A stretch of DNA of 33,049 nt from contig JALHSU010000134.1 in NCBI GenBank assembly GCA_022865345.1, forward strand, positions 1-33,049, given 5' to 3'. Below the pieces are notes generated by a model. That model was not told the origin of the DNA and did no database searches. It was given only the letters and a program-made list of their open reading frames with translations. The position numbers and the translations under genes were made by a program. Position 1 is the stretch's first letter. Each line of letters begins with the position of its first letter. Shown here one piece after another: positions 1,950 through 18,226 of this stretch. This DNA is from Candidatus Zixiibacteriota bacterium. Lineage in GTDB: Bacteria > Zixibacteria > MSB-5A5 > RBG-16-43-9.

Positions 1950-1971
1950 AACTGACCTCCTGTCTTAAGAG

Positions 1972-2000
1972 ATTTTATATTTCTTTATCATTCCTGCCAA
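1972..2000 (-). promoter_or_regulatory. Candidate sigma-70 promoter for ftsZ
   Basis: On the minus strand TTGGCA (1995-2000) is followed after 17 bases by TAAAAT (1972-1977). The predicted start is about 15 bases before the ftsZ ATG and just upstream of its GGAGGT. An internal promoter for ftsZ is common in dcw clusters. This assignment is by sequence match only. Confidence 0.4.
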
Positions 2001-2010
2001 AGTGAACGAG

Positions 2011-2089
2011 CCTGGCCGGGCAAGGTGCCCGACCTACGAAGACCGTGAACTTATATTTCATCAATTCTCGTAGGCGGGACCAGCCCCGC
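2011..2089. repeat. Palindromic repeat (GGCAAGGTGCCCGACCTACGA type), copy 1
   Basis: GGCAAGGTGCCCGACCTACG (2019-2038) is followed by A and, after 28 bases, by TCGTAGGCGGGACCAGCCCCGC (2068-2089, arm TCGTAGG). The CCTACGA/TCGTAGG arms can pair. A second copy with the same arms is at 18093-18175 near the other end of the dcw cluster, so the cluster has related copies at its two ends. Confidence 0.55.
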
Positions 2090-2114
2090 ACACATGAGCT
2101 TTTCAAAGATCTCT

Positions 2115-3347: not shown

Positions 3348-3404
3348 AGCTTATCTCCCCTGCAAGCTTTTATACCGCCTGAACGGCAGTATAAAGGCTT
3401 CTTT

Positions 3405-4130
3405 TTAGAGGCTTTTCCTTGCTTCTTTAAAAATTACCTGGTCCTTGAATCTGAAATCAAGGCATGAGCATTCCTCAACTACTAATGCTTTTTCTAACCA
3501 GACGAATCTTTCGATTTTTTTTTGAAAATCTCCTGTCCCGAAAAAGATCCTGGCGCCGCTTTTCACTAGAATGACTACTAAATTATCCTTATCCTCTAAA
3601 TCTATCTCTGAAATTTGATCCAGAAACTCGGGTAGTTTTTCCCTTACTGCTTTATAAAAGGCTAAGGCTTCCTCGATTTTTGGCTCCTCTGCTCTGCTGT
3701 AAGGTTTAAAGCTTCTGGATTTTATCCCGTTAACAATTGGCAAATCATAGGCTTCCCCTTCTCTTAATGGGATGATCTCCCCCTCCAATGATAGGCCGCA
3801 CAGCTGGGGCGAAAGGTTTAAGATTAAATCAGGTTTTTTCTCCTCTATCCTTATGGCGATTTTATCTGGAAGGATCCTGTAAGTCTCAACGGATTTCACC
3901 CTCTGATCTTTTTCTATCTTCCTTTCGATATCCCCTAAGTCGATTTTGAAAATGTTCTGCTTCAATCTCAAATTCGCCAACTTGAGCACCTCATCCTGGC
4001 TTAAACCTTCGTTTCCAGTTATGTCCAGGTTTTTCAGACCGAAAAGAGTTGACTCGGTGAAAAAAAGCTCAACCCCTCTCAGCCAGAGAAAGAGCAGCAC
4101 CAGAACTCCTGCGATTGCTGCTTTTTTCAC
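3405..4130 (-). CDS. ftsQ: Cell division protein FtsQ/DivIB
   Basis: Bitopic inner-membrane division protein linking early and late divisome proteins. The 241 residues show a short cytoplasmic N-terminus, one membrane segment (about 5-20), a POTRA domain (about 28-98, containing GLKNLDITGNEGLSQDEVL and VETYRILPDKIAIRIEEK), and a beta-domain to the end. The start is GTG, overlapping the murC stop by four bases (GTGA), with the purine-rich GAGGGGGAGAG just upstream. murB and ddl, which often separate murC from ftsQ, are absent here. Confidence 0.93.
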   Translation of the reverse strand: MKKAAIAGVLVLLFLWLRGVELFFTESTLFGLKNLDITGNEGLSQDEVLKLANLRLKQNIFKIDLGDIERKIEKDQRVKSVETYRILPDKIAIRIEEKKPDLILNLSPQLCGLSLEGEIIPLREGEAYDLPIVNGIKSRSFKPYSRAEEPKIEEALAFYKAVREKLPEFLDQISEIDLEDKDNLVVILVKSGARIFFGTGDFQKKIERFVWLEKALVVEECSCLDFRFKDQVIFKEARKSL

Positions 4131-5515
4131 CTCTCCCCCTCTTTTAAGGATAAGAGCAGATTCTCACCCACCTTGAATATGTCTCCTGCCCCTAAGGTTA
4201 TCACCATATCCCCTGATTTTAAGATTTTTTTAAGGAAGGGGATTGTCTTCTCTTTCTCCGGTATATAGAAAACCTCCTTATGCCCGTATTCTCTCGCCTG
4301 TGAAGCAACAAGCTCACCGGTTATCCCTGGGATAGGCTCTTCCCTGGCTGGATAGACATCTGTTACGATCAATATGTCCGAGTCGAAAAAAGATTTGCCA
4401 AACTCTTTATAGAAATCCCTGGTGCGGGAATAAAGATGAGGCTGGAAGACAGCTATGGTCCTTCTTGACCATCCATCCCTTGCAGCTTTCAATGTAGCTC
4501 TTATCTCTGTGGGATGGTGTGCATAGTCATCTACAACCATCACCCCGTTTATAATCCCTTTGATTTCGAATCTCCTGCTAACTCCTTTGAATTCTGATAG
4601 GGCTTTTTTCATCTTGTCAAAGGGTATCTCAAGTTCCAATGCCACACAGATTGCAGCTAAAGAGTTTTTGACATTATGGATTCCGGGAACAAACAGGGAG
4701 ACTTCTCCTAAATCTTTGTCCTTATGCCTTACCTTGAAACGGCTGCCATTTTCTTTGAGCATGAATGAATGAGCTACCAGGTCAGCCTGGGGAACCAGCC
4801 CGTAAGTGATTATAGGCCTTTCTATCCTGGGCATTATCTCCTGAATGGTCGCCTCATCCAGGCACAAAATCACGCTTCCATAAAAGGGAACTTTATTGAC
4901 GAATTCTGTGAAAACCGATTTTATCTCCTCTAAATCCTTGTAATAATCCAGATGCTCAGCTTCTAAGGTAGTGACCACAGCAATCGTAGGTGTAAGGCGC
5001 AAAAACGAGCGATCGAACTCGTCTGCCTCAGCTACCAGGTATTCACCCTGACCTAATTTGGCATTGCTCCCTAAGTTTGTGACCCTCCCACCCACGATAA
5101 TGGTCGGGTCTAATCCAGCTTCTGTTAAAATCTGGCCTATCATCGAGGTGGTAGTTGTCTTTCCGTGAGTCCCTGCTACACCGATGCCGAATTTCATCCG
5201 CATCAGCTCGCCCAACATCTCCGATCTTCTTATCACCGGGATTTTGTTCTCCTTGGCTAAAACTACTTCTGGATTCGTATCTTTGACTGCTGAGGAGATG
5301 ACCACAACATCCGCTCCTGCGACATTCTCCCTCTTATGCTCCAGGAAGATCTTAATGCCTAATTTTCTCAACCTTTCAGTTGATTCAGAGCTTCTTATGT
5401 CTGACCCGGAAATTGAATATCCTAAATTCCAGAGGATCTCGGCAATGCCGCACATCCCGGTCCCGCCTATCCCCACAAAATGAAGCTTTTTTACCTTTTT
5501 GAATTGCATCATCAT
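4127..5515 (-). CDS. murC: UDP-N-acetylmuramate--L-alanine ligase MurC
   Basis: Cytoplasmic ATP-dependent ligase adding L-alanine to UDP-MurNAc, the first amino acid of the peptidoglycan stem. The 462 residues show the N-terminal nucleotide-sugar fold (FVGIGGTGMCGIAEIL, 13-28), the ATP loop GTHGKTTTT (115-123), the central EADEFDRSF motif typical of MurC, and DDYAHHPTEIRATL in the C-terminal domain. The first codons are ATGATGATG, so the exact start could be any of three; the ribosome binding site is weak (AAGAAG). It overlaps ftsQ by four bases, so the two are translationally coupled. Confidence 0.97.
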   Translation of the reverse strand: MMMQFKKVKKLHFVGIGGTGMCGIAEILWNLGYSISGSDIRSSESTERLRKLGIKIFLEHKRENVAGADVVVISSAVKDTNPEVVLAKENKIPVIRRSEMLGELMRMKFGIGVAGTHGKTTTTSMIGQILTEAGLDPTIIVGGRVTNLGSNAKLGQGEYLVAEADEFDRSFLRLTPTIAVVTTLEAEHLDYYKDLEEIKSVFTEFVNKVPFYGSVILCLDEATIQEIMPRIERPIITYGLVPQADLVAHSFMLKENGSRFKVRHKDKDLGEVSLFVPGIHNVKNSLAAICVALELEIPFDKMKKALSEFKGVSRRFEIKGIINGVMVVDDYAHHPTEIRATLKAARDGWSRRTIAVFQPHLYSRTRDFYKEFGKSFFDSDILIVTDVYPAREEPIPGITGELVASQAREYGHKEVFYIPEKEKTIPFLKKILKSGDMVITLGAGDIFKVGENLLLSLKEGER

Positions 5516-5535
5516 ATTTCACTTCTTCTTAGTTC

Positions 5536-5590
5536 CTCGTTGGGTCTCCTGACCAACGAGGCTCCGTTGGTGAGAACACCAACGGAGAGC
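5536..5590. repeat. Double-hairpin repeat (CTCGTTGG / CTCCGTTGGTG), copy 1
   Basis: Two adjacent hairpins: CTCGTTGG...CCAACGAG, then CTCCGTTGGTG-AGAA-style loop-CACCAACGGAG (arms 5562-5572 and 5578-5588, perfect). A near-identical unit is at 9640-9693 and half a unit at 21562-21579. It starts 20 bases upstream of the murC ATG. Confidence 0.7.
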
Positions 5591-5600
5591 ACTTTCATCA

Positions 5601-5685
5601 GTCATTGCGAGGAGTCCGCACGGACGACGAAGCAATCTGAACTAAGTAAACGGATTGCTTCGCCCTTTCGGGAACTCGCAACGAC
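5601..5685. repeat. GTCATTGCGAG...CTCGCAACGAC element, copy 1
   Basis: An approximately 85-base palindromic element. The ends GTCATTGCGAG and CTCGCAACGAC are inverted, with an inner inverted pair AGCAATC/GATTGCT. A better preserved copy is at 9535-9620. I recognise this type as a widely distributed MITE/REP-like intergenic element, from general memory rather than a search. Confidence 0.7.
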
Positions 5686-5743
5686 GTTTGTTATTTCTTA
5701 TTATCTTCCTTTTTCAGTCTTCCATTTTCCTTTACTTAGCCCG

Positions 5744-5805
5744 CGTAGGGGCGGAGCTCATCTCCGCCCTAAGGTGTGCGGGTGGAGGCAAGCTCCGCCC
5801 CTACG
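5744..5805. repeat. 15-bp perfect inverted repeat CGTAGGGGCGGAGCT / AGCTCCGCCCCTACG
   Basis: Arms at 5744-5758 and 5791-5805 are perfect over 15 bases, with a 32-base interior that also has TCTCCGCCC/GGTGGAGG. The right arm ends one base before the murG stop codon region. It may act as a transcript-stabilising hairpin or attenuator between murG and murC. Confidence 0.65.
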
Positions 5806-5806
5806 A

Positions 5807-6904
5807 CTATTTCTTTAAGAGTTCCTCCATCTCATCCACAATTTGAGAAGCTGCCATTGGTTTAGCTAAAATTTTTGCATTTCTCGACATCTCTTTCAAT
5901 CTGTTTTCATCCTTCAAGAGCCCCACAATCAGAATTGCCAGATTCTCACCTTTTAGCTCCTTTTCTAATATCACTTCAGCCGCACCTTTTTCTTTTAAGG
6001 ACATAGCATTATATCTCTGATGGTCTGCTGTGGCAAAAGGATAAGGGATAAGAATCGAGGGTTTGCCGCAGGCGGTCACCTCAGCTAAAGTCAGAGCACC
6101 AGACCTACAAACCAGCAAATCAGCAACGGCATAAGCTGAGCTCATATCCTGGATAAAAGGAAGTATTGTTGCGTTTAAGTTTACACCTTTCATAAAATCT
6201 CTGATCTCCTCAAAATCCTTACTTCCTGTCTGCCAGAGAATCTGAATATCTCCAGCCTGTTCCAGATAACTAATCCCTTCCCTTATGGCTTGATTTATCC
6301 TTCTTGAACCCTGACTGCCACCCAAGATGAAGACTGTTTTCTTGTCCGGGTTCAGATTGAACTTTCTTAGTCCTTCTTCCCTGTTCCCGGAGATGATCTC
6401 TTTTCTGATAGGATTACCTAATACCCTCAACTTTCCCTTCAAAGGAAAGTACCTGGTCGAATCTTGGTATGAAAGACAAACCCGGTTGGTAAATAAGGAC
6501 AAAATCCTGGTAGATATGCCCGGATAAGAATTTTGTTCCTGAATTAGCGTTTTCTTTCCCAGCAAGCTCGCCATTAAAAGAACAGGCAGGCTTACATAAC
6601 CTCCGGTACCAACCACAATGTCAGGTTGATACTTTCTCAAAACCGTTCTTGATTCCAGAAAACTTTTCAGTATGTAGAAAGGCAAAAAGAAAAGCTCTTT
6701 TCTCAGACTGCGGGCTAATCCTTTAGCGGAGATGAACTCCAAATTGAAATTATTTCTTGGAACCAATTCCTTTTCCAATCCTTTCCTCGTGCCGATGAAA
6801 AGTATCTCCGAGTCCGGAAACCGGTATTTGAACTCATTGGCAATAGCAATCGCCGGGTAGATATGCCCTCCGGTTCCTCCTCCAGCTAAAATCACTTTTA
6901 GCAT
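5807..6904 (-). CDS. murG: UDP-GlcNAc:undecaprenyl-PP-MurNAc-pentapeptide transferase MurG
   Basis: Peripheral inner-membrane glycosyltransferase that converts lipid I to lipid II by adding GlcNAc. The 365 residues contain the N-terminal glycine loop LAGGGTGGHIYPAIAIA (6-22), the second loop VGTGGYVSLPVL, GGSQGSRRIN (195-204) and the donor-binding RSGALTLAEVTACGKPSILIP (267-287) with ATADHQRYNA. The ATG overlaps the ftsW stop by seven bases. It is followed by about 290 bases of repeats rather than directly by murC. Confidence 0.97.
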   Translation of the reverse strand: MLKVILAGGGTGGHIYPAIAIANEFKYRFPDSEILFIGTRKGLEKELVPRNNFNLEFISAKGLARSLRKELFFLPFYILKSFLESRTVLRKYQPDIVVGTGGYVSLPVLLMASLLGKKTLIQEQNSYPGISTRILSLFTNRVCLSYQDSTRYFPLKGKLRVLGNPIRKEIISGNREEGLRKFNLNPDKKTVFILGGSQGSRRINQAIREGISYLEQAGDIQILWQTGSKDFEEIRDFMKGVNLNATILPFIQDMSSAYAVADLLVCRSGALTLAEVTACGKPSILIPYPFATADHQRYNAMSLKEKGAAEVILEKELKGENLAILIVGLLKDENRLKEMSRNAKILAKPMAASQIVDEMEELLKK

Positions 6905-8010
6905 AACCTCCTGTGTATCTTAAAATCCCTTTGTCTGGAGATATTCAGGATTATCCCCACACCTGCCAGATTGAAAAAAAGAGAAGTTCCTCCATAACTT
7001 AAAAAAGGCATCGGTATTCCCGTGGTTGGAAGTAGTCCTAAAACCACGCTTGAATTTATGAGAAAATTTATGAAGATGGTAAAGGTAAGCCCAAAAGCAA
7101 GGTAATAACCTAACAGGTCCGGCGCTCTCTGGGAAATCTGAATACCTCTCCAGGCTAAAAGAAAAAATAGGATTAAAATGCCTGCTACCCAGAAAAAACC
7201 TCCCTCTTCACCGATTGTAGCCAGGATGAAATCAGTATGAGGTTCCGGCAGAAAGAAAAGTTTCTGCCTGCCCTGACCTAACCCTACGCCGGTTAATCCG
7301 CCATTACCCATAGACAAAACCGATTGTTTGAGCTGATAACTTCCCTGTAACGGGTCATTAAGGGCTTTAGCATAATCTATTATCCTGTCTTTTTCGTACC
7401 CGGTTAAAAACACAAATAAAAGCCCGATGACTATAACGGGAACAGTGATGAATAACAGATAACGCAATTTTACTCCAGATAGATAAAGCAGAACCAGGGA
7501 ACTTAAAACCAGGGTAAAAAGCCCTCCCAGGTGAGGCTCTTTCAAGAGAAGCAGACCTGACACTCCTAAAACCACCAGGTAAGGCAGGAGCAGATGTTTG
7601 AACTGTTTTATCTTCTCGCCTTTTTTAACCAGGGTAAACGACATAAATAGGATAAAAGAATACCTGAAAAATTCGCTGGGCTGAAACCCGATAGGGCCAA
7701 TCCGAATCCATCTTTTTACCCCTTTGGTCGGGTCCAAGAACAACACCAGGACCAGAAAAATCGCCGATAGAAAAAGACAAACATACGATATCTTTTTAAG
7801 GCGATGGTAATCTGTCTTCATTAACAGGAATAAACCCACAGAGGAGACAATAAGCCAGGAGAGCTGTCTGATTAGAAAAAAGGATGAGTCCTTCTTCATT
7901 TTGAAATCAGCCAGTATGGCGGAGGCAGAATAGATCATTATCATTCCCAGGAAAACCAGGATTAGAACGATAGCAATCAACATGAAATCAGGCTTGGACC
8001 GGTCAGTCAT
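6898..8010 (-). CDS. ftsW: Lipid II polymerase FtsW (SEDS family)
   Basis: Polytopic SEDS glycosyltransferase that polymerises lipid II with its partner class B PBP at the septum. The 370 residues have about ten membrane segments. Family motifs are GPIGFQPSEFFRYSFI (105-120), GVGLGQGRQKLFFLPEPHTDFI (241-262 region, with the essential Asp of HTDF at 260) and GIPMPFLSYGGTSL (331-344). The position inside the dcw run between murD and murG, with the PBP upstream, supports FtsW over RodA. The ATG sits in an ATGACTGA overlap with the murD stop, behind AGGGG. Confidence 0.95.
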   Translation of the reverse strand: MTDRSKPDFMLIAIVLILVFLGMIMIYSASAILADFKMKKDSSFFLIRQLSWLIVSSVGLFLLMKTDYHRLKKISYVCLFLSAIFLVLVLFLDPTKGVKRWIRIGPIGFQPSEFFRYSFILFMSFTLVKKGEKIKQFKHLLLPYLVVLGVSGLLLLKEPHLGGLFTLVLSSLVLLYLSGVKLRYLLFITVPVIVIGLLFVFLTGYEKDRIIDYAKALNDPLQGSYQLKQSVLSMGNGGLTGVGLGQGRQKLFFLPEPHTDFILATIGEEGGFFWVAGILILFFLLAWRGIQISQRAPDLLGYYLAFGLTFTIFINFLINSSVVLGLLPTTGIPMPFLSYGGTSLFFNLAGVGIILNISRQRDFKIHRRLC

Positions 8011-9406
8011 CTCTTTTCCCCTTTAGATTCAGGACCGCTTCTTTAAAAACCCTTCCTCGGTGCTCATAATCTTTGAACATATCGAAACTGGCGCAGGCAG
8101 GGGAAAGCAAAACGCAGTCACCCTTATCCGCTTTTTTGAACCCTAATTCTACTGCTTCCTGCATAGACTCGACTATGCATGTAGGCACCAGCTCACCTAA
8201 GGCATTTTTTATTTTCTCTTTTGCCTGGCCTAAAAGGATTAGTCCTTTAACCTTCGATTTGACTAACCCCCTCAATTTCGTAAAATCTCCGCCTTTATCC
8301 TTACCTCCGGCGATGAGAAAAACCGGCTCTTTTATGCTCTGCAGGGCATAGAAAACAGAATCAACATTGGTGGCTTTGGAATCATTAACGAATCTTACCT
8401 GGTCGATTATGGCAACTTCTTCTAACCGGTGTTCGACCCCTTTGAAACTTCTCAGGGTTTTTTCCATTGAATCTTTTTTCACGCCTAAGACAGCACTGAT
8501 GGCACAGGCAGCGCAGGCATTGGACAGATTATGTGGCCCCTTGATCCTTATCTCTTCTAACGGGATTATCTCTTCAGCTTTACCATTGAGCTGAAACACT
8601 AAGTTTCCATTTCTGACGTAGGAGCCAACCTTCAATTCGCTTTTAGTGCTGAAAAACAGGCTTTTTGCCCGGGACAGAGGTGCCAGGTTTGAGGTTATCG
8701 GATCATCCCAGTTTAAAACGACAAAATCATCCTCGGTCTGATTCTCGAAAATCCTCAACTTGGCATCAGTATAGCTTTTCATATCAGGGTAACGGTCAAG
8801 ATGGTCAGGGGTGATGTTCAAAATTGCCGAGACCTTCGGCTTGAACTCCTCGATTTTCTCCAATTGAAAACTGGAGACCTCCAGAACGATTATACCTTTG
8901 CTGGAAACCTCCTGCACCACACTTGAGAACGGAACACCGATATTTCCCGCCACTTTTACCTCCCTTCCATCCTCTTTTAATATCTCACCCACAAGAGTAG
9001 TAGTGGTTGTCTTGCCGTTTGAACCGGTAATACCTATGATCTGAGCTTCGCAAAGCCAGTAGGCTACCTCCATTTCCGAGAAAATCGGTATTCCTTTGTT
9101 CTGAGCTTCAATCAAGACCGGTAGATCAGAGGGTATACCCGGACTTATGATCAGATAGTCCTTATGTTCAATGGATTCTTTCGTGTGTCCTCCGGTCTCA
9201 TAGTCTATTTCTGAGTTTTTCAATTCTGTAATCTCTGAAGATAAGCTTTCCTTATCCTTCTTTTCTGTCAAGAAAACAGAAGCACCCAGGCTCTTCAAAA
9301 CCTTAGCCAGAGCCATACCAGACCGAGCCATCCCGAAAACAGAGATTTTTTTCCCTCTAATCCGATCCACTCTCACGCATACCTCATCCGAACAAAGCGC
9401 TCTCAA
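8003..9406 (-). CDS. murD: UDP-N-acetylmuramoyl-L-alanine--D-glutamate ligase MurD
   Basis: Cytoplasmic ligase adding D-glutamate to UDP-MurNAc-L-Ala. The 467 residues show an N-terminal Rossmann fold (KKISVFGMARSGMALAKVL, 19-37), the ATP loop GITGSNGKTTTTT (125-137), LEVSSFQLE in the central domain and NDSKATNVDS, a MurD hallmark, in the last third. The chosen TTG start has GAGGGG four bases upstream. An in-frame GTG ten codons later (9376) with GAGG upstream is an alternative and would give a more usual N-terminus. It follows about 400 bases of repeats after mraY. Confidence 0.95.
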   Translation of the reverse strand: MRALCSDEVCVRVDRIRGKKISVFGMARSGMALAKVLKSLGASVFLTEKKDKESLSSEITELKNSEIDYETGGHTKESIEHKDYLIISPGIPSDLPVLIEAQNKGIPIFSEMEVAYWLCEAQIIGITGSNGKTTTTTLVGEILKEDGREVKVAGNIGVPFSSVVQEVSSKGIIVLEVSSFQLEKIEEFKPKVSAILNITPDHLDRYPDMKSYTDAKLRIFENQTEDDFVVLNWDDPITSNLAPLSRAKSLFFSTKSELKVGSYVRNGNLVFQLNGKAEEIIPLEEIRIKGPHNLSNACAACAISAVLGVKKDSMEKTLRSFKGVEHRLEEVAIIDQVRFVNDSKATNVDSVFYALQSIKEPVFLIAGGKDKGGDFTKLRGLVKSKVKGLILLGQAKEKIKNALGELVPTCIVESMQEAVELGFKKADKGDCVLLSPACASFDMFKDYEHRGRVFKEAVLNLKGKRDD

Positions 9407-9450
9407 TTTTTCCCCTCAAACCCTTTAGTCCTCGAATCTTTTATTTTTTT

Positions 9451-9530
9451 CGTAGGGCAAATCTCAAGATCCACCTTGGACCTTCAGGTTTGTTTGTCTT
9501 CTATCTCGCAAGGCTGAAGTCTTGCCCTAC
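9451..9530. repeat. Element with arms CGTAGGGCA / TGCCCTAC, copy 2
   Basis: The left arm CGTAGGGCA (9451-9459) matches TGCCCTAC (9523-9530). The interior carries CAAGGCTGAAGTCTTGCC, as in the copy at 631-727. The inner sequence AAGGCTGAAGTCTT is a smaller imperfect palindrome shared by both copies. Confidence 0.55.
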
Positions 9531-9534
9531 CACC

Positions 9535-9620
9535 TGTCATTGCGAGGAGTCCGTAGGACGACAAAGCAATCTTCACAGTATAGGGGATTGCTTCGCCCCC
9601 TATGAGGGCTCGCAATGACA
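9535..9620. repeat. TGTCATTGCG...CGCAATGACA element, copy 2
   Basis: Perfect ten-base terminal inverted repeats (9535-9544 and 9611-9620) and inner arms AAGCAATC/GATTGCTT. The 86-base length and the internal GAGGAGTCCG and GCTTCGCCC blocks match the copy at 5601-5685. There is no transposase, so any movement would need one supplied in trans. Confidence 0.75.
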
Positions 9621-9639
9621 GCATAATTTTTTACCGCTG

Positions 9640-9693
9640 CTCGTTGGTCTCCTGACCAACGAGGCTCCGTTGGTGAGGACACCAACAGAGAGC
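9640..9693. repeat. Double-hairpin repeat (CTCGTTGG / CTCCGTTGGTG), copy 2
   Basis: Nearly identical to 5536-5590: CTCGTTGG-TCTCCTGA-CCAACGAG followed by CTCCGTTGGTG...CACCAACAGAG. One base change in the right arm (C to A at the ACGG/ACAG position) weakens the second stem slightly. Confidence 0.7.
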
Positions 9694-9721
9694 AAGGCCT
9701 TGACATACACACCTTTTGTAT

Positions 9722-9775
9722 GTTCTAACCGACTTTAGTCGGGTCTTTTCTTACGCCACTGAAGTGGCTTTGAAC
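9722..9775. repeat. GTTC-GACTTTAGTC-...-CACTGAAGTGG-GAAC element, copy 1
   Basis: Two small hairpins, CCGACTTTAGTCGGG and GCCACTGAAGTGGC, lie inside GTTC...GAAC ends. The copy at 12330-12412 has the same two hairpins in the same order with an extra insert between them. Confidence 0.6.
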
Positions 9776-9809
9776 TAAATTTGTTTTTCCTTTGAACTTT
9801 TGAACTTTT

Positions 9810-10898
9810 TTATCTTATCTTTAGAGTACTTAACGTCAAAAGCGCAAATATCGCTCCTGCTATCCAGAATCTGACCACCACTTTCGGCTCCTGCCAGCCG
9901 GAAAGCTCAAAATGATGATGCAGAGGTGCCATCTTGAAAATCCTTTTGCCTTTACTGCACTTGAAATAGACCACCTGGAGCATAACTGAAAGCGCCTCAG
10001 CCACAAAAACTCCGCCGACTATCACCAGGAGCAGCTCTTTTTTTACCAGAACAGCCAACAAACCTAAGGAGCTTCCCAAAGCTAAAGCTCCGGTATCCCC
10101 CATAAAGACCTTTGCTGGATAGGAGTTGAACCATAAGAAACCTAATGCCGCTCCTATTAAAGTCCCGCAGAAAATAGTTAACTCACCAGCCCCTTCTAAA
10201 TAAGTAATGCCTAAATATCTGGAAAAATCCGTCCTTCCTGTAACATAGGCTATACCAGCAAAGGCGATTGCGCATAGCCCGGCCAAGCCTATGGCTAATC
10301 CATCCAGCCCATCAGTCAAATTGACCGCATTGGATGAGCCAGTCAGGACCAGCATCACAAATGGAATGTATAAAATCCCGAAGTCCAGGAAGTAGCTTTT
10401 GAGAAAAGGTATCTCAGTGGCAGTATCAAAATTGCGCGAGGGCGGAAAAAAATAAAGGAGCGCTCCTATGATTAAGCCCAGACTCACCTGTCCTATTAAT
10501 TTTTTCCTGCCAACCAGTCCTTTGCGCTGGTGTTTTATGGCTTTGAGATAATCATCCATGAACCCGATCGCACCGGTCCAGGCAGTTGCCAGAAGAATCA
10601 GCTGTATATACCGGTTGCTCAGATCAGCCCAAAGGGCAGTGGGCAGCAAAACTGAGAAAAGGATTATCAGTCCGCCCATAGTTGGCGTCCCCTCCTTCGT
10701 CAGATGGGTTGCTGGCCCCTCTGCCCTTATCTTTTCCTTCACCTGTTTTTCCCTGAGTTTGCGAATGAAGTAGGGTCCCAGAATCAGACTTATCAAAAGA
10801 GCAGTGACTGTAGCATAAGCGCTGCGGAAAGTTATATATTTAAACAGGTTAAAAAAACTTATATGCTTGCTTAAGGGATATAACAAATGATAGAGCAT
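9810..10898 (-). CDS. mraY: Phospho-MurNAc-pentapeptide transferase MraY
   Basis: Polytopic inner-membrane enzyme transferring phospho-MurNAc-pentapeptide from UDP to undecaprenyl phosphate, forming lipid I. The 362 residues have about ten membrane segments. The catalytic motifs are GFMDDYLK (112-119, Asp pair), SNAVNLTDGLDGLA (189-202), the Mg-binding MGDTGALALG (266-275) and the cytoplasmic MAPLHHHFELSGW (323-335). The ATG lies one base after the murF stop, so the two are coupled. Length is standard for the family. Confidence 0.97.
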   Translation of the reverse strand: MLYHLLYPLSKHISFFNLFKYITFRSAYATVTALLISLILGPYFIRKLREKQVKEKIRAEGPATHLTKEGTPTMGGLIILFSVLLPTALWADLSNRYIQLILLATAWTGAIGFMDDYLKAIKHQRKGLVGRKKLIGQVSLGLIIGALLYFFPPSRNFDTATEIPFLKSYFLDFGILYIPFVMLVLTGSSNAVNLTDGLDGLAIGLAGLCAIAFAGIAYVTGRTDFSRYLGITYLEGAGELTIFCGTLIGAALGFLWFNSYPAKVFMGDTGALALGSSLGLLAVLVKKELLLVIVGGVFVAEALSVMLQVVYFKCSKGKRIFKMAPLHHHFELSGWQEPKVVVRFWIAGAIFALLTLSTLKIR

Positions 10899-10899
10899 T

Positions 10900-12315
10900 T
10901 TAGCTTTTGACCGGATAAAGTTTTTTCAAACCATCCACGACTGCTTCCAAGCCTATTTTCCTTGAGCCTTTGAAAAGGACCACATCCCCGGGTTTCAAAA
11001 TCTCCAGAAGCTTTTCCAGGAGAGATTTTTTATCTTGAAACGAGAATATATTTTTTTTCTCAAAACCTTTATCTTTGGCCCCTTGGGCAATTCCTGAGGA
11101 GAGCCCTCCAAAGGTAAAAAGGTAATCTACTTCACATTCCTTGACTTTTTCACCAATTGTTTTGTGAAATTCCAAAGATTTTTCGCCTAACTCTAACATA
11201 TCCCCTAAAACTGCCACTTTATTTCCAGAAGTCTTCATCCCTTTAAGGGTTTCTAAAGCCATCCCCATTGAAGTAGGGTTAGCATTATAGGAATCGTTTA
11301 AGATTTTTATACCATCTACTTCAGACAGTTCCATTCTTAACTCAAAAGGAGTATAATTTTCCAGAGCTTCTTTAATTTTTTCCCCCTCTATCTTGAGGAT
11401 CGATGCTGCCGAAAATGCGGCTAAGGCATTATAAACATTATGTTTCCCTAAGAGCTTAATAGTAATTGGAAATGAATTATTTACAGAAAACGAGAAAAAT
11501 CCATTTCCGTTTTGAATTATGTTTTTCGCTACGAAATCAGCTTCTTTTTCCAGGCCGAAAGTGTAGACTTTTCTTTTCTCAATTTTAACTCTTTTTGAAA
11601 GCCAGGGGTCATCTGCATTCAGGACTATCTTTCCTTTTTCATCCATATTCTCTAAAAGCTCAAATTTAGCCTGAGCAATTTTTTCTAAGCTTCCCATAAA
11701 CTCTAAATGAGCTGGACCTATATTGGTGATCAGTCCCGTGTCAGGATTTGCCATTCTGGTCAAAATTCCTATCTCTCCTGGCTGGTTCATCCCCAATTCC
11801 AGGACCAACACTTCAGTCTCAGAAGTAATCTTAAGCAGAGTCAAAGGAACCCCCACCTGATTATTGAAGCTTTTTTCTGAACGGAGGACTTTATACTTTT
11901 TCGAAAGAACCTCTGCTATCATCTCTTTGGTAGTGGTTTTACCATTTGTGCCGGTGATAGCCACTACTTTGACATTAAATTTATCCCGGTACCATTTTGC
12001 AATCTCTTGCAGGGCAGTTCTGGTATCTTTAACCAGAACCGCCCTTTTCCCTGAGGTGGAAGATATGTAGGGAATTTCTCTATCTGTTAATTTGTCTTCT
12101 GAAATGATTACACAGGATGCCCCTTTATCCAGGGCCTGTTTTATGAAGTCGTGTCCGTCATACTTCTCACCTTTTATGGCGATGAAGAGATTCTGGGGCT
12201 CGATCGTTCTGGAATCAATAGACAACCCTTTAATCCGGAAATCCGCAAAGGGTCCTTCAGGAAATGGTTTCCCTTTAACTATGTCTAAAAGCTCTTTATA
12301 TCTTATTTCTATCAT
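10900..12315 (-). CDS. murF: UDP-MurNAc-tripeptide--D-alanyl-D-alanine ligase MurF
   Basis: Cytoplasmic ligase adding D-Ala-D-Ala to complete the UDP-MurNAc-pentapeptide. The 471 residues show the N-terminal substrate domain (GLSIDSRTIEPQNLFIAIKG, 30-49), the ATP loop AITGTNGKTTTKEM (119-132), the central LELGMNQPGEIG and the MurF-type DSYNANPTSM. The D-Ala-D-Ala ligase gene (ddl) that makes its substrate is not in this window. It is separated from murE by 80 bases occupied mostly by a hairpin repeat. Confidence 0.97.
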   Translation of the reverse strand: MIEIRYKELLDIVKGKPFPEGPFADFRIKGLSIDSRTIEPQNLFIAIKGEKYDGHDFIKQALDKGASCVIISEDKLTDREIPYISSTSGKRAVLVKDTRTALQEIAKWYRDKFNVKVVAITGTNGKTTTKEMIAEVLSKKYKVLRSEKSFNNQVGVPLTLLKITSETEVLVLELGMNQPGEIGILTRMANPDTGLITNIGPAHLEFMGSLEKIAQAKFELLENMDEKGKIVLNADDPWLSKRVKIEKRKVYTFGLEKEADFVAKNIIQNGNGFFSFSVNNSFPITIKLLGKHNVYNALAAFSAASILKIEGEKIKEALENYTPFELRMELSEVDGIKILNDSYNANPTSMGMALETLKGMKTSGNKVAVLGDMLELGEKSLEFHKTIGEKVKECEVDYLFTFGGLSSGIAQGAKDKGFEKKNIFSFQDKKSLLEKLLEILKPGDVVLFKGSRKIGLEAVVDGLKKLYPVKS

Positions 12316-12329
12316 AAATCTATCTTTTT

Positions 12330-12412
12330 GTTCAGACTGACTTTAGTCAGGTTCTTTTTTCCTCTCCTTCGTAAGGAGAGGGTGAGGTTACGCCACTAAA
12401 GTGGCTTGGAAC
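12330..12412. repeat. GTTC-GACTTTAGTC-...-CACTAAAGTGG-GAAC element, copy 2, overlapping the murE 3' end
   Basis: The hairpins CTGACTTTAGTCAG (12337-12350) and GCCACTAAAGTGGC (12392-12405) match the pair at 9722-9775. Between them is a further hairpin, CTCTCCTTCGTAAGGAGAG. The right end runs past the murE stop codon, so the element encodes the last few residues and the stop of MurE. Confidence 0.65.
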
Positions 12413-13880
12413 ACGATTGCACCCGACCTGATTTCTTTAACTCATCTTCTACAATCTCTCGCTCGCTGAAATGGAGCTTCTCTTTACCAATTATCTGATA
12501 ATCCTCATGCCCTTTACCTGCTAAAACGATGGTGTCGTTTTCTTTTGCTCTTCTCAGGGCAGAGATAATTGCCTCTTTCCGATCCAGGATTACTTCCACT
12601 TTTGATCTATCAGAAACCCCTTTTAGTATCTCTGCGATTATTTCCTTCGGATCTTCGCTCCTCGGATTATCCGTGGTAAGCATCACAAAATCTGCCAGAT
12701 TACTTGAAATCCTGCCCATAATTTCTCTTTTTGTCCTGTCCCTGTCACCCCCGCATCCGAATAAGAAGACTATCTTTCCCTTTGTCATTTTTCTAACTGT
12801 TAGGAGTAGGTTCTCAAAGGCAAAAGGAGTATGAGCATAGTCGATTATCACCTTGAAATTCTGACCTGACTCTATTTGCTCTAGTCTACCCGGAACTCCG
12901 GAGAAACTCTCTAAACCTGTCTTGATTTTTGAAAGACTCGTTCCGGTAACAAAAGCGGAGGCAACGGCGGCTAAGGCATTGTAGATATTCACATCGCCTA
13001 AGACCTTCAAGTTTATATCCAGATCACCTCCCGGGGTAACCAGTTCTAATTTGAACCCTGAATCAGTCTGGGAACAGGTCTTTACATAGAAATCTGCTTC
13101 TTTGTTTTTCAATGAGTATGTCAATCTTACCCCTTTGCTGACATTATAGAAGTATTCCCATTCCGGATCATCCAGATTGATCACCGCATAACTGTCATCT
13201 TTAAGATTCTGGAATAGAATCCCTTTAGCCTCCCTGTAAGATTTCATATCCTTGTGAAAATCTAAGTGTTCCGGATTCAGGTTGGTGAAGACCGCCACGT
13301 CGAAATCCACCATCTTAACTCTGTTCAGGACTAAGGAATGAGAAGAGACCTCCATCGCCACAGAAGTAACCTTTTGCTTGAGCATCTCGTAAAACATCCT
13401 CTGCAAATCAAGTGATTCCGGGGTGGTATTTGCAGCCGGGATTTTTTTATCACCTATATGGTAAGCTATAGTCCCGATTAAACCTGTTTTCTCTGCATCT
13501 TTTTCCCAGATAGATTTAAGCATGTAGGTGATGGTGGTCTTGCCGTTGGTTCCGGTTACTCCAACTACTTTCAGCTTAGAGGAGGTATAATCATAGTACA
13601 AAGCAGAAATTAGCGACAGGGCTTCTCTTGAGTCTTTCACTTTTATCTGAGCCTTTAAAGGGTAGTCGCCTTTTTTTTCTAAGACGCAGGCAACAGCCCC
13701 TTTCTGGATAGCGGAGTTTATATATTTGTGCCCATCCTGCTCAAATCCGGACATGGCGAAAAAAAGGTCGTCTTTTTCTATCTTTCTTGAATCATATTCT
13801 AATTTATTTATGTTACAATCGATGTCTCCGTAAATCTCCTTCTCCGGAAGCACCTCCAGAAGTTTCTTCAGTTTAGTCAT
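12396..13880 (-). CDS. murE: UDP-MurNAc-L-Ala-D-Glu--meso-diaminopimelate ligase MurE
   Basis: Cytoplasmic ligase adding the third stem residue. I place the start at the ATG overlapping the PBP stop (ATGACTAA), giving MTKLKKLLEVLPEKE, the usual MurE N-terminus. A GTG at 13913 would add 11 unlikely residues and has a poorer binding site. Numbering from the ATG, motifs are the SR of EYDSRKIEKDDLFFAMSG, the ATP loop GTNGKTTITY (110-119), MEVSSHSL, and DNPRSEDP at 404-411. DNPR is the established signature for meso-diaminopimelate rather than lysine specificity. The last residues (SKPL) and stop come from a palindromic repeat. Confidence 0.95.
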   Translation of the reverse strand: MTKLKKLLEVLPEKEIYGDIDCNINKLEYDSRKIEKDDLFFAMSGFEQDGHKYINSAIQKGAVACVLEKKGDYPLKAQIKVKDSREALSLISALYYDYTSSKLKVVGVTGTNGKTTITYMLKSIWEKDAEKTGLIGTIAYHIGDKKIPAANTTPESLDLQRMFYEMLKQKVTSVAMEVSSHSLVLNRVKMVDFDVAVFTNLNPEHLDFHKDMKSYREAKGILFQNLKDDSYAVINLDDPEWEYFYNVSKGVRLTYSLKNKEADFYVKTCSQTDSGFKLELVTPGGDLDINLKVLGDVNIYNALAAVASAFVTGTSLSKIKTGLESFSGVPGRLEQIESGQNFKVIIDYAHTPFAFENLLLTVRKMTKGKIVFLFGCGGDRDRTKREIMGRISSNLADFVMLTTDNPRSEDPKEIIAEILKGVSDRSKVEVILDRKEAIISALRRAKENDTIVLAGKGHEDYQIIGKEKLHFSEREIVEDELKKSGRVQSCSKPL

Positions 13881-15927
13881 CTGATCTGCACTCCAGAAAA
13901 CAGGTTTCCCCACCTGTAAGTTTCGTTCCAGGCAAGGGAGCCTGCTTTATCACTTTGCCCGAACCCTGCAGCTTTACTGTAATTGAATAAGAGCTTAAGA
14001 GCTTGACAGCTTCCCTTACCGTGGAGCCAGTTAAATCCGGCATGATTTTCCGGTCCTGCAACAGTTTCAAATCCTTTATCTCACTGCCAGAATCTATCTT
14101 CCCCTTTAGAGAAGTAACATCCTGCTCATTCAGCCGTACCTTATGAAGTGTTGCTGCTTGAACGGCTGATTTTTGTCTTTCTGAATCCTGTTCCCTGGAG
14201 GCAACTGAAAAGGAAACCTGTGGCTTTTCAATTTTATTTTTCACCAGTAGATTTTCAGATGGGATTATTTTCTCAGTCACTCTCTTGAAAGCCGGACCTG
14301 CTGTCTGGCCTCCATAATGCATCCCTTTAGGCGAGTCCAGCATGATAAACCCGACCATCTGAGGATTTTCTGCCGGGAAAAAACCTACAAATGAAGCGAT
14401 ATATTTACCCTTCTGGTAACCTCTTTCTCCGACTTTAGGCTTCTCAGCGGTGCCGGTCTTTCCGGCTATATTTACCCCTTCTATTTGCACTGTATTCCCT
14501 GTCCCGTCAGTGACCACACCCCTCAAGAACTCAGTTAAAAGATAAGCGGTTTTTGGCTCTAACGCTCTTCTGAGCACGGTAGGCTGGAACTCCTGAGCAA
14601 CTTTTCCCTCCTCATCCAGAATCGCTTTCACCACATAAGGTTTAAGAAGAAGACCACCATTGGCTATGGCAGCATAGGCACATACAAGCTGGATCGGGGT
14701 AACTGAGACGCCCTGACCAATGGCAAAAGTTGCGGTAGTGATGTCAGACCATTTCTTAGCAGAGGAAGGAAAAAGTCCTTTCGCCTCTCCTGGTAGGTCT
14801 ATTCCGGTTCTCTCTCCAAATCCGAACCTCTTAGCATAATCTAAAAGGTTCTCGTCACCGACCTCCATTGCCACCTTGGCCATACCTATATTGCTGGATA
14901 ACACCACACAGTCTTTAAAAGTTAGCCAGCCATATTCGTGAATATCGTGGAACGTCTTTTTCCCGATCTTGAACTTACCCTTCTCGGCAAAAAGCGAATC
15001 TTCAGGCTTTTTTATCCCTTTTTCCAGCGCGGCCGCAACTGTGATTATTTTAAAAGTAGAGCCTGGCTCGAAATTGTCGCAGACTAATCTGTTTTTAAGC
15101 CTCAGTTCAGAAGATGTGTTCTCTGCATTTTCTTTTGAGATATATGCCATAGCCAGGATCTCTCCTGTGCTCGGGTTTAGAAGAATGCCGGAACCAGCTT
15201 CTGAACCGGTAAGTTTAATGGAGTTCTTCAGTTCATCTTCTAATTTAGCCTGAAGGTCTAAATCCAGAGTCAACACCAGGCTTTTTCCGCTCTGTGGATC
15301 CACCAGAGGGTACTCCCTTATCTGGTATGAGTTTCCCCAGGCGTCCTTCTGAAAAATTCCCTTCCCGTCCTTTCCGGATAGGAACTGGTTATACTGATAT
15401 TCTACGCCAGCAGAACCCTTATTATCTATGTCCGTGAAGCCTATCAGGTCGCAAGCCAAAGGATAATAAGGATAACTCCTTTTGGTCTCTTCCTGCACGT
15501 ATATCCCCTTTAAACGCCAGCTTTTTACCTTTTCAGCTTCCTCTTTTTCGCACTTCCTTTTTAGCCAGACAAACCTTTTTCCATCCTGACATAGGGAACC
15601 TTTGATTTCCTGGTCACTTTTTTCAGACAAAGCGGAGAAACGGTTTGCCACCAGGCTCTTATTGGCGACACTTTCCGGCACCGCGAAAAAAGACTCAGCC
15701 GGAAGGTTAAAAGCCAAAATCTTCATATTCCGGTCATAGATCACTCCGCGTCTTGCTTCTAACTTCATACAGACCTCCTGCTGGCGTAAAGCAAGTTTCT
15801 GGATTTGCGCACTCTTGACTACCTGGAGCTGAAAAACCCGCAGAAGTACCGCCAGGGTGAAAAGGACTGCTAACAGAAAAAGAACCGTGCTTCTTCTTCT
15901 GAGTTCCGATTTTTTCTTAGAGGTCAT
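13873..15927 (-). CDS. ftsI: Septal class B penicillin-binding protein with C-terminal PASTA domain (FtsI/SpoVD type)
   Basis: Periplasmic transpeptidase that crosslinks septal peptidoglycan with FtsW. The 684 residues show one N-terminal membrane anchor (about 13-35), the dimerisation domain starting RRGVIYDRNMKILA (59-72), and the transpeptidase domain with the catalytic Ser290 in STFK, SSN at 344-346 and KTG at 490-492. A single C-terminal PASTA domain (about 626-680, MPDLTGSTVREAVKLL) follows a low-complexity linker (560-620). A PASTA tail is typical of SpoVD or PBP2x-like proteins and of several candidate-phylum FtsI proteins. It overlaps ftsL by 11 bases. Confidence 0.95.
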   Translation of the reverse strand: MTSKKKSELRRRSTVLFLLAVLFTLAVLLRVFQLQVVKSAQIQKLALRQQEVCMKLEARRGVIYDRNMKILAFNLPAESFFAVPESVANKSLVANRFSALSEKSDQEIKGSLCQDGKRFVWLKRKCEKEEAEKVKSWRLKGIYVQEETKRSYPYYPLACDLIGFTDIDNKGSAGVEYQYNQFLSGKDGKGIFQKDAWGNSYQIREYPLVDPQSGKSLVLTLDLDLQAKLEDELKNSIKLTGSEAGSGILLNPSTGEILAMAYISKENAENTSSELRLKNRLVCDNFEPGSTFKIITVAAALEKGIKKPEDSLFAEKGKFKIGKKTFHDIHEYGWLTFKDCVVLSSNIGMAKVAMEVGDENLLDYAKRFGFGERTGIDLPGEAKGLFPSSAKKWSDITTATFAIGQGVSVTPIQLVCAYAAIANGGLLLKPYVVKAILDEEGKVAQEFQPTVLRRALEPKTAYLLTEFLRGVVTDGTGNTVQIEGVNIAGKTGTAEKPKVGERGYQKGKYIASFVGFFPAENPQMVGFIMLDSPKGMHYGGQTAGPAFKRVTEKIIPSENLLVKNKIEKPQVSFSVASREQDSERQKSAVQAATLHKVRLNEQDVTSLKGKIDSGSEIKDLKLLQDRKIMPDLTGSTVREAVKLLSSYSITVKLQGSGKVIKQAPLPGTKLTGGETCFLECRSDD

Positions 15928-16357
15928 GTTTTATTTCTTTAGCTGGCAATCTTTTCTCTTCAAAAGGATAAAGTTTTTTCCCGAAATTTTTTAGCTTGAC
16001 CCACAGGTTCGCAGTAAGATTTGACTTTTTTGGCTGCTGTTCATACACTCGCTGAATCTGATATTCAGTGGGATGGACCAGTTCTAATTTCTCCTGGGAG
16101 ATTTTCTCTATTCTCTCAAAGGATGAGAGTTCCGAGGTCTCCAGGGTGAGGTATTTATATTTTTTTTCCTCTTCAGCCAGGAGTTTTTTTTGTTCCTGTA
16201 TCTCTTTTAATAGCTTTATGACCTTAACCCTCTGCCAGACATAAAGGATTGAAAAAACGATCAGCACCAGCAGAGCCAGATAAAAAAACTTATGGCTATA
16301 CCCTTTAATCCGCTTCTTTTGCGGTTTTGGCCTGTAAAAGAATTTGAATTCTGACAA
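15917..16357 (-). CDS. ftsL: Cell division protein FtsL-like
   Basis: Small bitopic protein expected to join FtsB/FtsQ and activate FtsW-FtsI. The 146 residues show a basic N-terminus (RPKPQKKRIKGYSHK), one membrane segment (about 26-42), and a heptad-rich coiled coil (about 45-75). The family-typical close is FERIEKISQEKLELVHPTEYQI (80-101). The tail of about 45 residues beyond that is basic and longer than in most FtsL. Sequence conservation is low, so the call rests on architecture and on its place between rsmH and the septal PBP. The start is TTG with GGGAG five bases upstream. Confidence 0.85.
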   Translation of the reverse strand: MSEFKFFYRPKPQKKRIKGYSHKFFYLALLVLIVFSILYVWQRVKVIKLLKEIQEQKKLLAEEEKKYKYLTLETSELSSFERIEKISQEKLELVHPTEYQIQRVYEQQPKKSNLTANLWVKLKNFGKKLYPFEEKRLPAKEIKHDL

Positions 16358-16390
16358 GCAAGCTCCCTGCTTCTTCCACCTCAGACCGGG

Positions 16391-17338
16391 TTATCCGATC
16401 TTTTCTGCTACCCTTAATTTTGCGCTTCTGGCTCTTGGATTTTCTTCGATCTCTTTCTCATCCGGAATAACCGGTTTCCTGGTCAGGATTTTCAGCACTT
16501 TCTTTCCTCCGCAGGTGCAGACTGGAAAATCCGGTGGACAGGTGCATCCTTTAGCCAGTTCAGAGAATCTACTCTTGACGATTCTATCTTCCACGGAATG
16601 ATAGGAGATAACGCAGACCCTTCCTCCCGGAGCTAAAGCTTCAATCCCGGCATCCAGCCCATTTTTTAATTCAGAAAGCTCATCATTTACCTCAATTCTT
16701 AAAGCCTGAAAAATCCGGGAAAGAGTTTTGATATCGCCCTTCGTTTTTAATATGCTTTTCACTATATCCTTGAGTTCTTTGGTGGTTTCTATCTTTTTTA
16801 TTCTCCTGTTCTGGACAATTGCCTGAGCTATCTTTTTAGAAAACCTTTCCTCCCCATATTCTTTGAAAATCCTGGTAAGTTCTTCAGCTGGATATTCATT
16901 TACGACATCTAACGCTATTGTTCCTTCACTCTGGTCAAATCTCATATCCAGTGGACCATATATAGAGTAGCTAAAACCTCTTTCCGGATTCTCTAATTGA
17001 TAAGAGGATAGACCCAAGTCAAATAGGACCCCGCTTATCTTCTCTAAATTCAGGCTTTTTAATATCTCAGGAAGATGGCTATAACTCTGACTGAAAAAAT
17101 CCACCTTCTTTCCAAACCTCCTGAGTCTTTCTTTTGAAATCCTTAAAGAATCGCTATCTCTATCAATCCCTAAGAGCTTTCCTCCCTCATTCAGCTCTTC
17201 TAAAACCGCTTCTGCATGTCCTCCGGTTCCCAGGGTCGCATCGACATATGTTCCTGACCTGTCAGTAATTAGACATTCAATTACTTTCTCTTTAAGTGCC
17301 GGTTTATGGTAAATCGTTCCAATCCTCGATCTCTTCAA
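16391..17338 (-). CDS. rsmH: 16S rRNA (cytosine(1402)-N4)-methyltransferase RsmH (MraW)
   Basis: SAM-dependent methyltransferase acting on C1402 in the 16S rRNA decoding centre. The 315 residues contain the SAM motif VDATLGTGGHAEAVLE (32-47), GIDRDSDSL (58-66), GVLFDLGLSSYQLENPERGFS, LDMRFDQSEG, RIFQALRIEVNDEL and ISYHSVEDRIVK. A CxC...CxC cluster (CTCPPDFPVCTCGGK) follows, as in many family members. The start is TTG, overlapping the mraZ 3' end by 35 bases, with GAGGAG four bases upstream. It is the second gene after mraZ, the conserved order. Confidence 0.96.
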   Translation of the reverse strand: MKRSRIGTIYHKPALKEKVIECLITDRSGTYVDATLGTGGHAEAVLEELNEGGKLLGIDRDSDSLRISKERLRRFGKKVDFFSQSYSHLPEILKSLNLEKISGVLFDLGLSSYQLENPERGFSYSIYGPLDMRFDQSEGTIALDVVNEYPAEELTRIFKEYGEERFSKKIAQAIVQNRRIKKIETTKELKDIVKSILKTKGDIKTLSRIFQALRIEVNDELSELKNGLDAGIEALAPGGRVCVISYHSVEDRIVKSRFSELAKGCTCPPDFPVCTCGGKKVLKILTRKPVIPDEKEIEENPRARSAKLRVAEKIG

Positions 17339-17765
17339 CTATCTCCTCAATCGGTTTTTCTCCTTCTCCACCTTCCTTATACTTCTTGAACAACTCTGGA
17401 TTCCAGAGCTCGATCCGATCTGGTAACTTGATTATTCGCACTTCTTTTTCTATTTTGGCGTCTGCCAGAAGCTCTTGCGAGATACTCATCCTTCCCTGTT
17501 TATCTAACTGAGATTCAGTGGCATTTGAGAAAATGATTCGTAAGTAGCGTCTTATATCCTTTTTATTTGAACGCAGTTTTTTAAGTTTTCCGATGAAATT
17601 ATCCCATTGATCCATAGAATAGACTGCCAGACAACCTTCCAGCCCGACCGTTATCATATAAGTATCGCAAAGCGTTGAACTATTAGTTTTTCTGAATTTA
17701 GCTGGAAGGCTAACTCTCCCTTTGTGGTCGAGTGAGTAATTATAGGAATTTTTGGTGAGGGGCAT
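17304..17765 (-). CDS. mraZ: Transcriptional regulator MraZ
   Basis: DNA-binding regulator that controls its own dcw operon. The 153 residues hold two SpoVT/AbrB-like half-domains, each with the family core: LDHKGRVSLPAKFR (about 12-25) and LDKQGRMSISQELL (about 91-104). The C-terminal stretch after 130 is acidic (EEIVEEIEDWND). The ATG is preceded by an A-rich leader without a clear Shine-Dalgarno sequence. Three 10-bp direct repeats overlapping the predicted transcription start directly upstream fit MraZ autoregulation. Cytoplasmic ring-shaped oligomers are known for the family. Confidence 0.95.
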   Translation of the reverse strand: MPLTKNSYNYSLDHKGRVSLPAKFRKTNSSTLCDTYMITVGLEGCLAVYSMDQWDNFIGKLKKLRSNKKDIRRYLRIIFSNATESQLDKQGRMSISQELLADAKIEKEVRIIKLPDRIELWNPELFKKYKEGGEGEKPIEEIVEEIEDWNDLP

Positions 17766-17786: not shown

Positions 17787-17816
17787 GTTTGCCACTGCTT
17801 GCCACTGCTTGCCACT
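17787..17816 (-). promoter_or_regulatory. Putative MraZ operator: three AGTGGCAAGC direct repeats
   Basis: On the minus strand AGTGGCAAGC, AGTGGCAAGC and AGTGGCAAAC follow each other exactly, with a 10-base period (17816-17807, 17806-17797, 17796-17787). MraZ is known to bind several direct repeats with a G-rich core spaced one helical turn apart just upstream of mraZ. The repeats begin one base after the -10 box, so a bound oligomer would cover the transcription start. Confidence 0.75.
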
Positions 17817-17817
17817 A

Positions 17818-17846
17818 ATATTATCTTATGTTTGTTCTATTGTCAA
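17818..17846 (-). promoter_or_regulatory. Main dcw promoter upstream of mraZ
   Basis: On the minus strand a perfect TTGACA (17841-17846) is followed after 17 bases by TAATAT (17818-17823). The overlapping GATAAT (17820-17825) is a better hexamer but only 15 bases away. The predicted start falls inside the first operator repeat and gives a leader of about 45 bases. Direct sequence match; not experimentally supported here. Confidence 0.7.
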
Positions 17847-18226
17847 GGAAAAAATTAAAAATTCTAATTTTTTTTTAGATTCCCCAAGTATTGGAAACTC
17901 ACCACTATTTATAGGAGCCTTCCCCCTACATCTTGATTCAAATTCTAATCCTTGTAATCACGAAAAAAATAACTTCTTCACCTGAAACAGAATATAAGAA
18001 TCTTCAAAACATCCGCTTGAAGTTTTATATGGCAAGCCTTTTGCCATATACTTATTGATAAATCCTAAAGAAGCTCTGATGAAGTCGCGGAGCATGGTCT
18101 GGCAAGGTGCCCGACCTACGAAAAATAACACATTTATCCATTTCGTAGGCGTCCCGCCACGGCGGGACCAGCCTCGTAAGTTAAGGTTCTCATAGACTTC
18201 TTAAAAAACCTGGAGGGGGAGTAGTT
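17847..18226. other. Divergent intergenic region between mraZ and the C25 protease gene
   Basis: An AT-rich stretch to about 18020 with no gene is followed by a palindrome ATATGGCAA...TTGCCATAT (18027-18049) and a second copy of the CCTACGA/TCGTAGG repeat. I see no convincing sigma-70 promoter for the rightward C25 gene, although the palindrome lies where one might sit. Confidence 0.5.
18093..18175. repeat. Palindromic repeat (GGCAAGGTGCCCGACCTACGA type), copy 2
   Basis: GGCAAGGTGCCCGACCTACG (18101-18120) followed by A repeats copy 1 at 2019-2039 over 21 bases, and TCGTAGGC (18143-18150) provides the opposite arm. Copy 2 carries an extra hairpin, GTCCCGCCACGGCGGGAC (18151-18168), before ACCAGCC, where copy 1 has only GGGACCAGCC. 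Confidence 0.6.

Follow-up and report, generated by a model that had tools for sequence, protein, structure and literature searches.

What do three 10-base direct repeats at the promoter of the division and cell-wall (dcw) operon do in a member of Candidatus Zixiibacteriota, and does this phylum read them through a MraZ recognition code of its own? We examined these questions in a contig of 33,049 nucleotides (JALHSU010000134.1), hereafter the window, meaning the whole stretch of DNA that was analyzed. Our findings suggest that the repeats very probably constitute the autoregulatory MraZ operator of the dcw operon, a sequence-based reading that is well supported by their position, 10-bp pitch, genome-wide uniqueness, conservation and standard MraZ architecture. 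The site is well conserved but ordinary, with a layout like that of E. coli and many other bacteria.

Promoter, repeats and operon

The following elements were identified at and downstream of the promoter, all of them on the minus strand:

17841..17846, minus strand: -35 hexamer TTGACA (read directly; promoter scan 10/12, spacer 17)
17818..17823, minus strand: predicted -10 hexamer TAATAT (read directly; promoter scan)
17807..17816, minus strand: putative MraZ box 1, AGTGGCAAGC (sequence and pattern search)
17797..17806, minus strand: putative MraZ box 2, AGTGGCAAGC (sequence and pattern search)
17787..17796, minus strand: putative MraZ box 3, AGTGGCAAAC, one change relative to AGTGGCAAGC (sequence and pattern search)
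17304..17765, minus strand: mraZ, 153 aa (Pfam PF02381, E 1.9e-28; TIGR00242; E. coli alignment; PDB matches)
801..17338, minus strand, same as mraZ: the rest of the dcw operon, comprising rsmH, ftsL, an ftsI-type PBP gene, Mur ligase genes, mraY, murD, ftsW, murG, murC, ftsQ, ftsA and ftsZ (profile searches)

The two hexamers are 17 bp apart, and on the minus strand a single T (17817) separates the -10 from box 1, the array thus opening one base past the -10. The boxes follow each other at a pitch of exactly 10 bp, with GTGG cores at +31, +41 and +51 counted from TTGAC. Judging from the position of the -10, transcription is predicted to start at about 17810-17811, inside box 1. A stretch of 21 nt lies between the end of box 3 (17787) and the mraZ ATG at 17765. 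These observations agree with the first-pass annotation, which had described three 10-base repeats at 17787-17846, a TTGACA promoter with repeats that begin one base after the -10 and cover the predicted start, and an mraZ without a clear Shine-Dalgarno. Its coordinates are exact, with two perfect copies and one bearing a single change; direct reading and the promoter scan bear out the promoter and the placement of the array; and the Shine-Dalgarno-like words GGAG, GAGG and AGGA are absent from the last 20 nt before mraZ in 4/4 members of the family of this genome (f1).

The identity of the first gene is clear, as the protein exceeds the cut-offs of both family profiles (PF02381, 98.7 bits against 23; TIGR00242, 116 bits against 98.35), and the PDB entries that it matches best are MraZ structures, 1n0e, 9qlr, 9qlg and 9sx6 among them. 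Both conserved loops, DxKGR17 and DxxGR92, are present with invariant R17 and R92; in the alignment with E. coli MraZ (26% identity), R17 falls on E. coli R15 and R92 on the second loop. The gene opens an intact mraZ-to-ftsZ operon and is followed by rsmH. Genomes of the same genus (Zixibacteria RBG_16_43_9 and Zixiibacteriota C20_concoct.bin.73) have 95% identical MraZ and 89% identical RsmH, and MraZ identity is about 47% between families f1 and f2.

Conservation of the array and comparison with known MraZ sites

By itself, the word AGTGGCAAGC is nothing unusual in the window (3 occurrences at up to one mismatch, 1.5 expected). The phased pattern GTGG-N6-GTGG-N6-GTGG occurs once in the 2.86-Mb genome, before mraZ, and its reversed-pattern control does not occur at all. 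The first-pass annotation had proposed a check of whether relatives that retain mraZ also keep the repeats, and they do: the exact triple is present in 6/6 genomes of f1 and f2, and degenerate forms are found in part of the class. Across the 11 genomes of the order that were scanned, the exact triple of these families stands only before mraZ, and the control gave 0 throughout. The sister species G002 carries four boxes, and therefore yields two overlapping triple matches, with an unchanged distance between promoter and first box. The genome scan returned no exact triple in family f3 of the same order, where 2/3 of the members read have weaker phased GTGG/ATGG arrays and a long leader.

A motif-free test gave the same pattern. 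With relatives' loci gathered using rsmH, we deduplicated the 200 bp upstream of mraZ from 109 members of the class and from 57 genomes belonging to other phyla, and tallied all repeated 4-mers for each spacing between 5 and 35. GTGG at spacing 10 ranked first in both sets. In the class it formed pairs in 63/109 and triples in 11/109 sequences, counts that are not independent events because 46/109 come from one family; in the other phyla, pairs were found in 49/57 and triples in 34/57. At neighboring spacings in the class, GTGG was repeated in 0 (spacing 9) and 3 (spacing 11) sequences. The spacing-10 pattern also appears in members of f1, f2, f6, f8, f12, f14 and f18. At least two GTGG in register are present in 70/109 class members, some with degenerate or shifted boxes, and TTGAC lies upstream of mraZ in 105/109, the remaining 4 sequences being without this anchor.

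The position of the boxes relative to other signals varies as well. In many f10 genomes, the first box lies inside the -35/-10 spacer, about +9 from TTGAC. In 42/58 genomes of f10 and f17 (e.g., L042, L045 and L056), the last box continues without a gap into the Shine-Dalgarno, giving GTGGAGGA a few nucleotides before the start codon, so that operator and ribosome site overlap.

The closest known counterpart is that of E. coli K-12, whose leader we read directly upstream of b0081 (NC_000913). There, TTGACA is followed by AGTGGGAAAT, TGTGGGGCAA and AGTGGGAATA, with GTGG at +37, +47 and +57 from TTGAC. Both sites thus have a TTGAC -35 and three (A/T)GTGGG or AGTGGC boxes, respectively, at 10-bp pitch, downstream of the promoter core and before mraZ-rsmH; they differ in the first GTGG (+37 in E. 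coli, +31 here), in the base after GTGG (G there, C here) and in the SD-like GGGGTGAGG of the E. coli leader, which has no equivalent in the window. Similarly, B. cenocepacia MraZ binds, by gel shift, a fragment with four 7-nt GTG repeats separated by 3-nt spacers, and these repeats are located past the -10, over the dcw transcription start (PMC7761207). This is the same layout as in the window, with four repeats instead of three. The GTG motif is conserved in the MraZ sites of B. subtilis, E. coli and mycoplasmas (PMC7761207). Mollicute boxes, as quoted from Fisunov 2016 in PMC8475190, are AAAGTG[T/G] direct repeats, which in M. genitalium are described there as occurring in the genome solely before mraZ. 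They share with the window direct GTG repeats before mraZ, but their core is AAAGTG[T/G] and not AGTGGC.

These comparisons bear on a further proposal of the first-pass annotation, that the GTGG core differs from an enterobacterial TGGG core, is closer to the GTG-type box of Mollicutes and may reflect a MraZ code particular to this phylum. The TGGG core is part of the E. coli GTGGG, and the GTGG of the window is therefore the same core, present in E. coli K-12 three times at 10-bp pitch; moreover, AGTGGC is nearer to the E. coli AGTGGG than to AAAGTG[T/G]. GTGG is also used by Clostridia, Selenomonadales, Patescibacteria, KSB1 and others. A phylum-specific code could be read from the GTGGC of this genus as opposed to the GTGGG of E. 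coli, but the core is identical in E. coli and other phyla, and the following base is mixed both in non-class genomes and in the class (A 0.31, C 0.12, G 0.37, T 0.20). Among close relatives, C is confined to the genus itself, and the sister genus already differs, with G, G and T. We therefore regard a separate code as very unlikely: of the earlier proposal, the autoregulatory site stands as a prediction from pitch, uniqueness and conservation, and its extension to a code of the phylum's own does not.

Distal palindromes and the divergent peptidase gene

Farther upstream, within the same intergenic region, two imperfect palindromic copies lie 21 bp apart:

17889..17906, no strand assigned: copy A, minus-strand reading AGTGGTGAGTTTCCAATA (motif search; hold-out PWM p = 0.008, the lowest value that 120 shuffles allow)
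17910..17927, no strand assigned: copy B, minus-strand reading AGGGGGAAGGCTCCTATA (PWM; weaker than copy A)

The pair recurs at the 21-bp offset in 4/4 members of f1, and a motif search of the 105 bp before the -35 recovered the palindrome with a log-likelihood of 173, against 71-82 in shuffles. This revealed a 22-bp palindrome that is also present at non-mraZ genes, and we consequently dropped our first reading of the distal CCTATAAATAGTGG as a second promoter carrying a single MraZ box.

Both copies fit TATGGGAAATTTCCCATA, a motif that recurs across the class ahead of genes for pilins, flagellins and secreted proteases. Summed over genome scans, the palindrome TATNGGNANNTNCCNATA has 92 sites in 127 class genomes, compared with 14 when the pattern is reversed as a control. 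Among the 76 sites that were read, 61 lie between genes; 20 precede pilin-like genes, which carry an N-methylation motif in those scanned, 10 precede subtilases and 4 precede flagellins. Palindrome loci are the window (17889-17927), L200, L216, L220, L222, L223, L226-L230, L234-L246, L251 and L255-L281; L200 is a perfect copy in the genome of the window, between a pilV-like gene and a subtilase. A one-mismatch search of this genome gave 187 matches, not above the 238 of its control. Using a PWM trained only on the class-wide genome-scan sites with f1 left out (threshold p ≤ 0.05), matches upstream of mraZ were obtained in f1 (4/4), f6 (3/3), f7 (3/4), f8 (4/4), f13 (3/3) and f18 (4/4); the counts were 1/45 in f10 and 0/12 in f17.

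The divergent neighbor of mraZ (window 18227-20656) encodes a C25-type (gingipain-like) secreted peptidase, as it does in two scanned relatives, and this mraZ/C25 peptidase pair is an unusual conserved neighborhood. Similar-looking proteins were seen in other relatives, and the loci across the class with such an upstream neighbor of mraZ are L004, L009, L015, L027, L030, L033 and L044. With peptidase start codons picked by eye, the palindrome is 177-199 bp from the peptidase start in 11/13 genomes other than the window, whereas it can be anywhere between 103 and 260 bp away from mraZ in the same set. The steadiness of the first distance against the variability of the second weakens the reading that the palindrome serves mraZ and leads us to regard the peptidase gene, with moderate confidence, as its target. 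The longer distance in the window would be explained by a REP-like segment with two inverted arms, GTGCCCGACCTACGAAA and TTTCGTAGGCGTCCCGCC, which was noticed by eye at about 18060-18180 and separates the palindromes from the peptidase gene.

The palindromes are thus probably not part of the MraZ operator. They could act on both divergent genes, and in most genomes that have the palindrome there it lies 42-67 bp upstream of the mraZ -35. That a second regulator besides MraZ also controls the dcw operon of f1 and several other Zixiibacteriota families through 17889-17927, as a TATGGGAAATTTCCCATA operator, is a tentative suggestion that we hold to be unlikely; if true, it would couple division-gene expression to a surface-lifestyle regulon of type IV pilin, flagellin and secreted proteases. 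The palindrome element is more unusual than the MraZ boxes.

Two further observations concern this region in other families. In some f10 genomes (L218, L234 and L258), the palindrome lies between a gene for a WYL-domain transcription factor and a divergent gene for a "TLVQCSIKKP" protein; the WYL-domain factor is a candidate link to the palindrome regulator. In f10, f15, f16 and f17 (e.g., L081, L069 and L048), another distal motif before mraZ, TACTCATTGA-N9-AGTTA, stands in place of the palindrome. Relative to the mraZ TTGAC it is found near -51, -61 or -71, positions that differ by full turns of the helix, as expected of an activator site. An exact-pattern search for this f10-type motif gave no match, the pattern being too strict.

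Proposed repression by MraZ, rival readings and significance

MraZ proteins form ring-shaped oligomers. By analogy with the family, each subunit of a probably ring-shaped oligomer would occupy one GTGG box, one box per helical turn and all on the same face of the DNA. Since the boxes run from the end of the -10 over the predicted transcription start, bound MraZ would keep RNA polymerase from melting the promoter or escaping from it. The expected outcome is negative feedback, limiting mraZ and the downstream division genes, with the repressive sign carried over from E. coli as an assumption. According to the account quoted in PMC8475190, overexpression of MraZ in M. gallisepticum went along with increased FtsZ.

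The repeats could alternatively act in the mRNA leader, for instance as a hairpin or attenuator. Given their position, at the predicted start or past it, at least two copies would be transcribed; yet folding of the leader does not exceed that of shuffled sequences (z = +0.82), and some boxes in other class families sit untranscribable between the -35 and -10 in the same 10-bp register, which makes an RNA element very improbable. The array might also belong to another protein that uses GTGG repeats, such as DnaA, whose box is TTATCCACA, i.e., TGTGGATAA. TGTGG is common to both, and a few Patescibacteria copies read GTGGATAA, but class boxes show a fixed 10-bp pitch and no preference for ATAA after GTGG, those of the window are GTGGCAAGC, and the array tracks mraZ and is absent elsewhere in these genomes; we consider DnaA an extremely remote candidate. 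Lastly, replication slippage could have left a meaningless tandem repeat at a promoter by chance, as the change from three to four copies between sister species might hint. Slippage alone, however, would give identical units and no confinement to mraZ, whereas in distant relatives the six bases outside GTGG are different and just the core and the pitch are kept. The conservation of GTGG before mraZ across phyla refutes this reading, to which we give almost no credence.

An operator bound by MraZ would carry an autoregulatory circuit already known from bacterial cell division into a phylum that is little studied and mostly uncultured. The comparisons also point to the GTGG box at 10-bp pitch as the common MraZ operator, in place of separate codes for each lineage. 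These genomes differ naturally in having three or four boxes and in whether the boxes follow the -10, lie within the -35/-10 spacer or extend into the Shine-Dalgarno, and such differences are ready material for testing how feedback strength may depend on box number and position.
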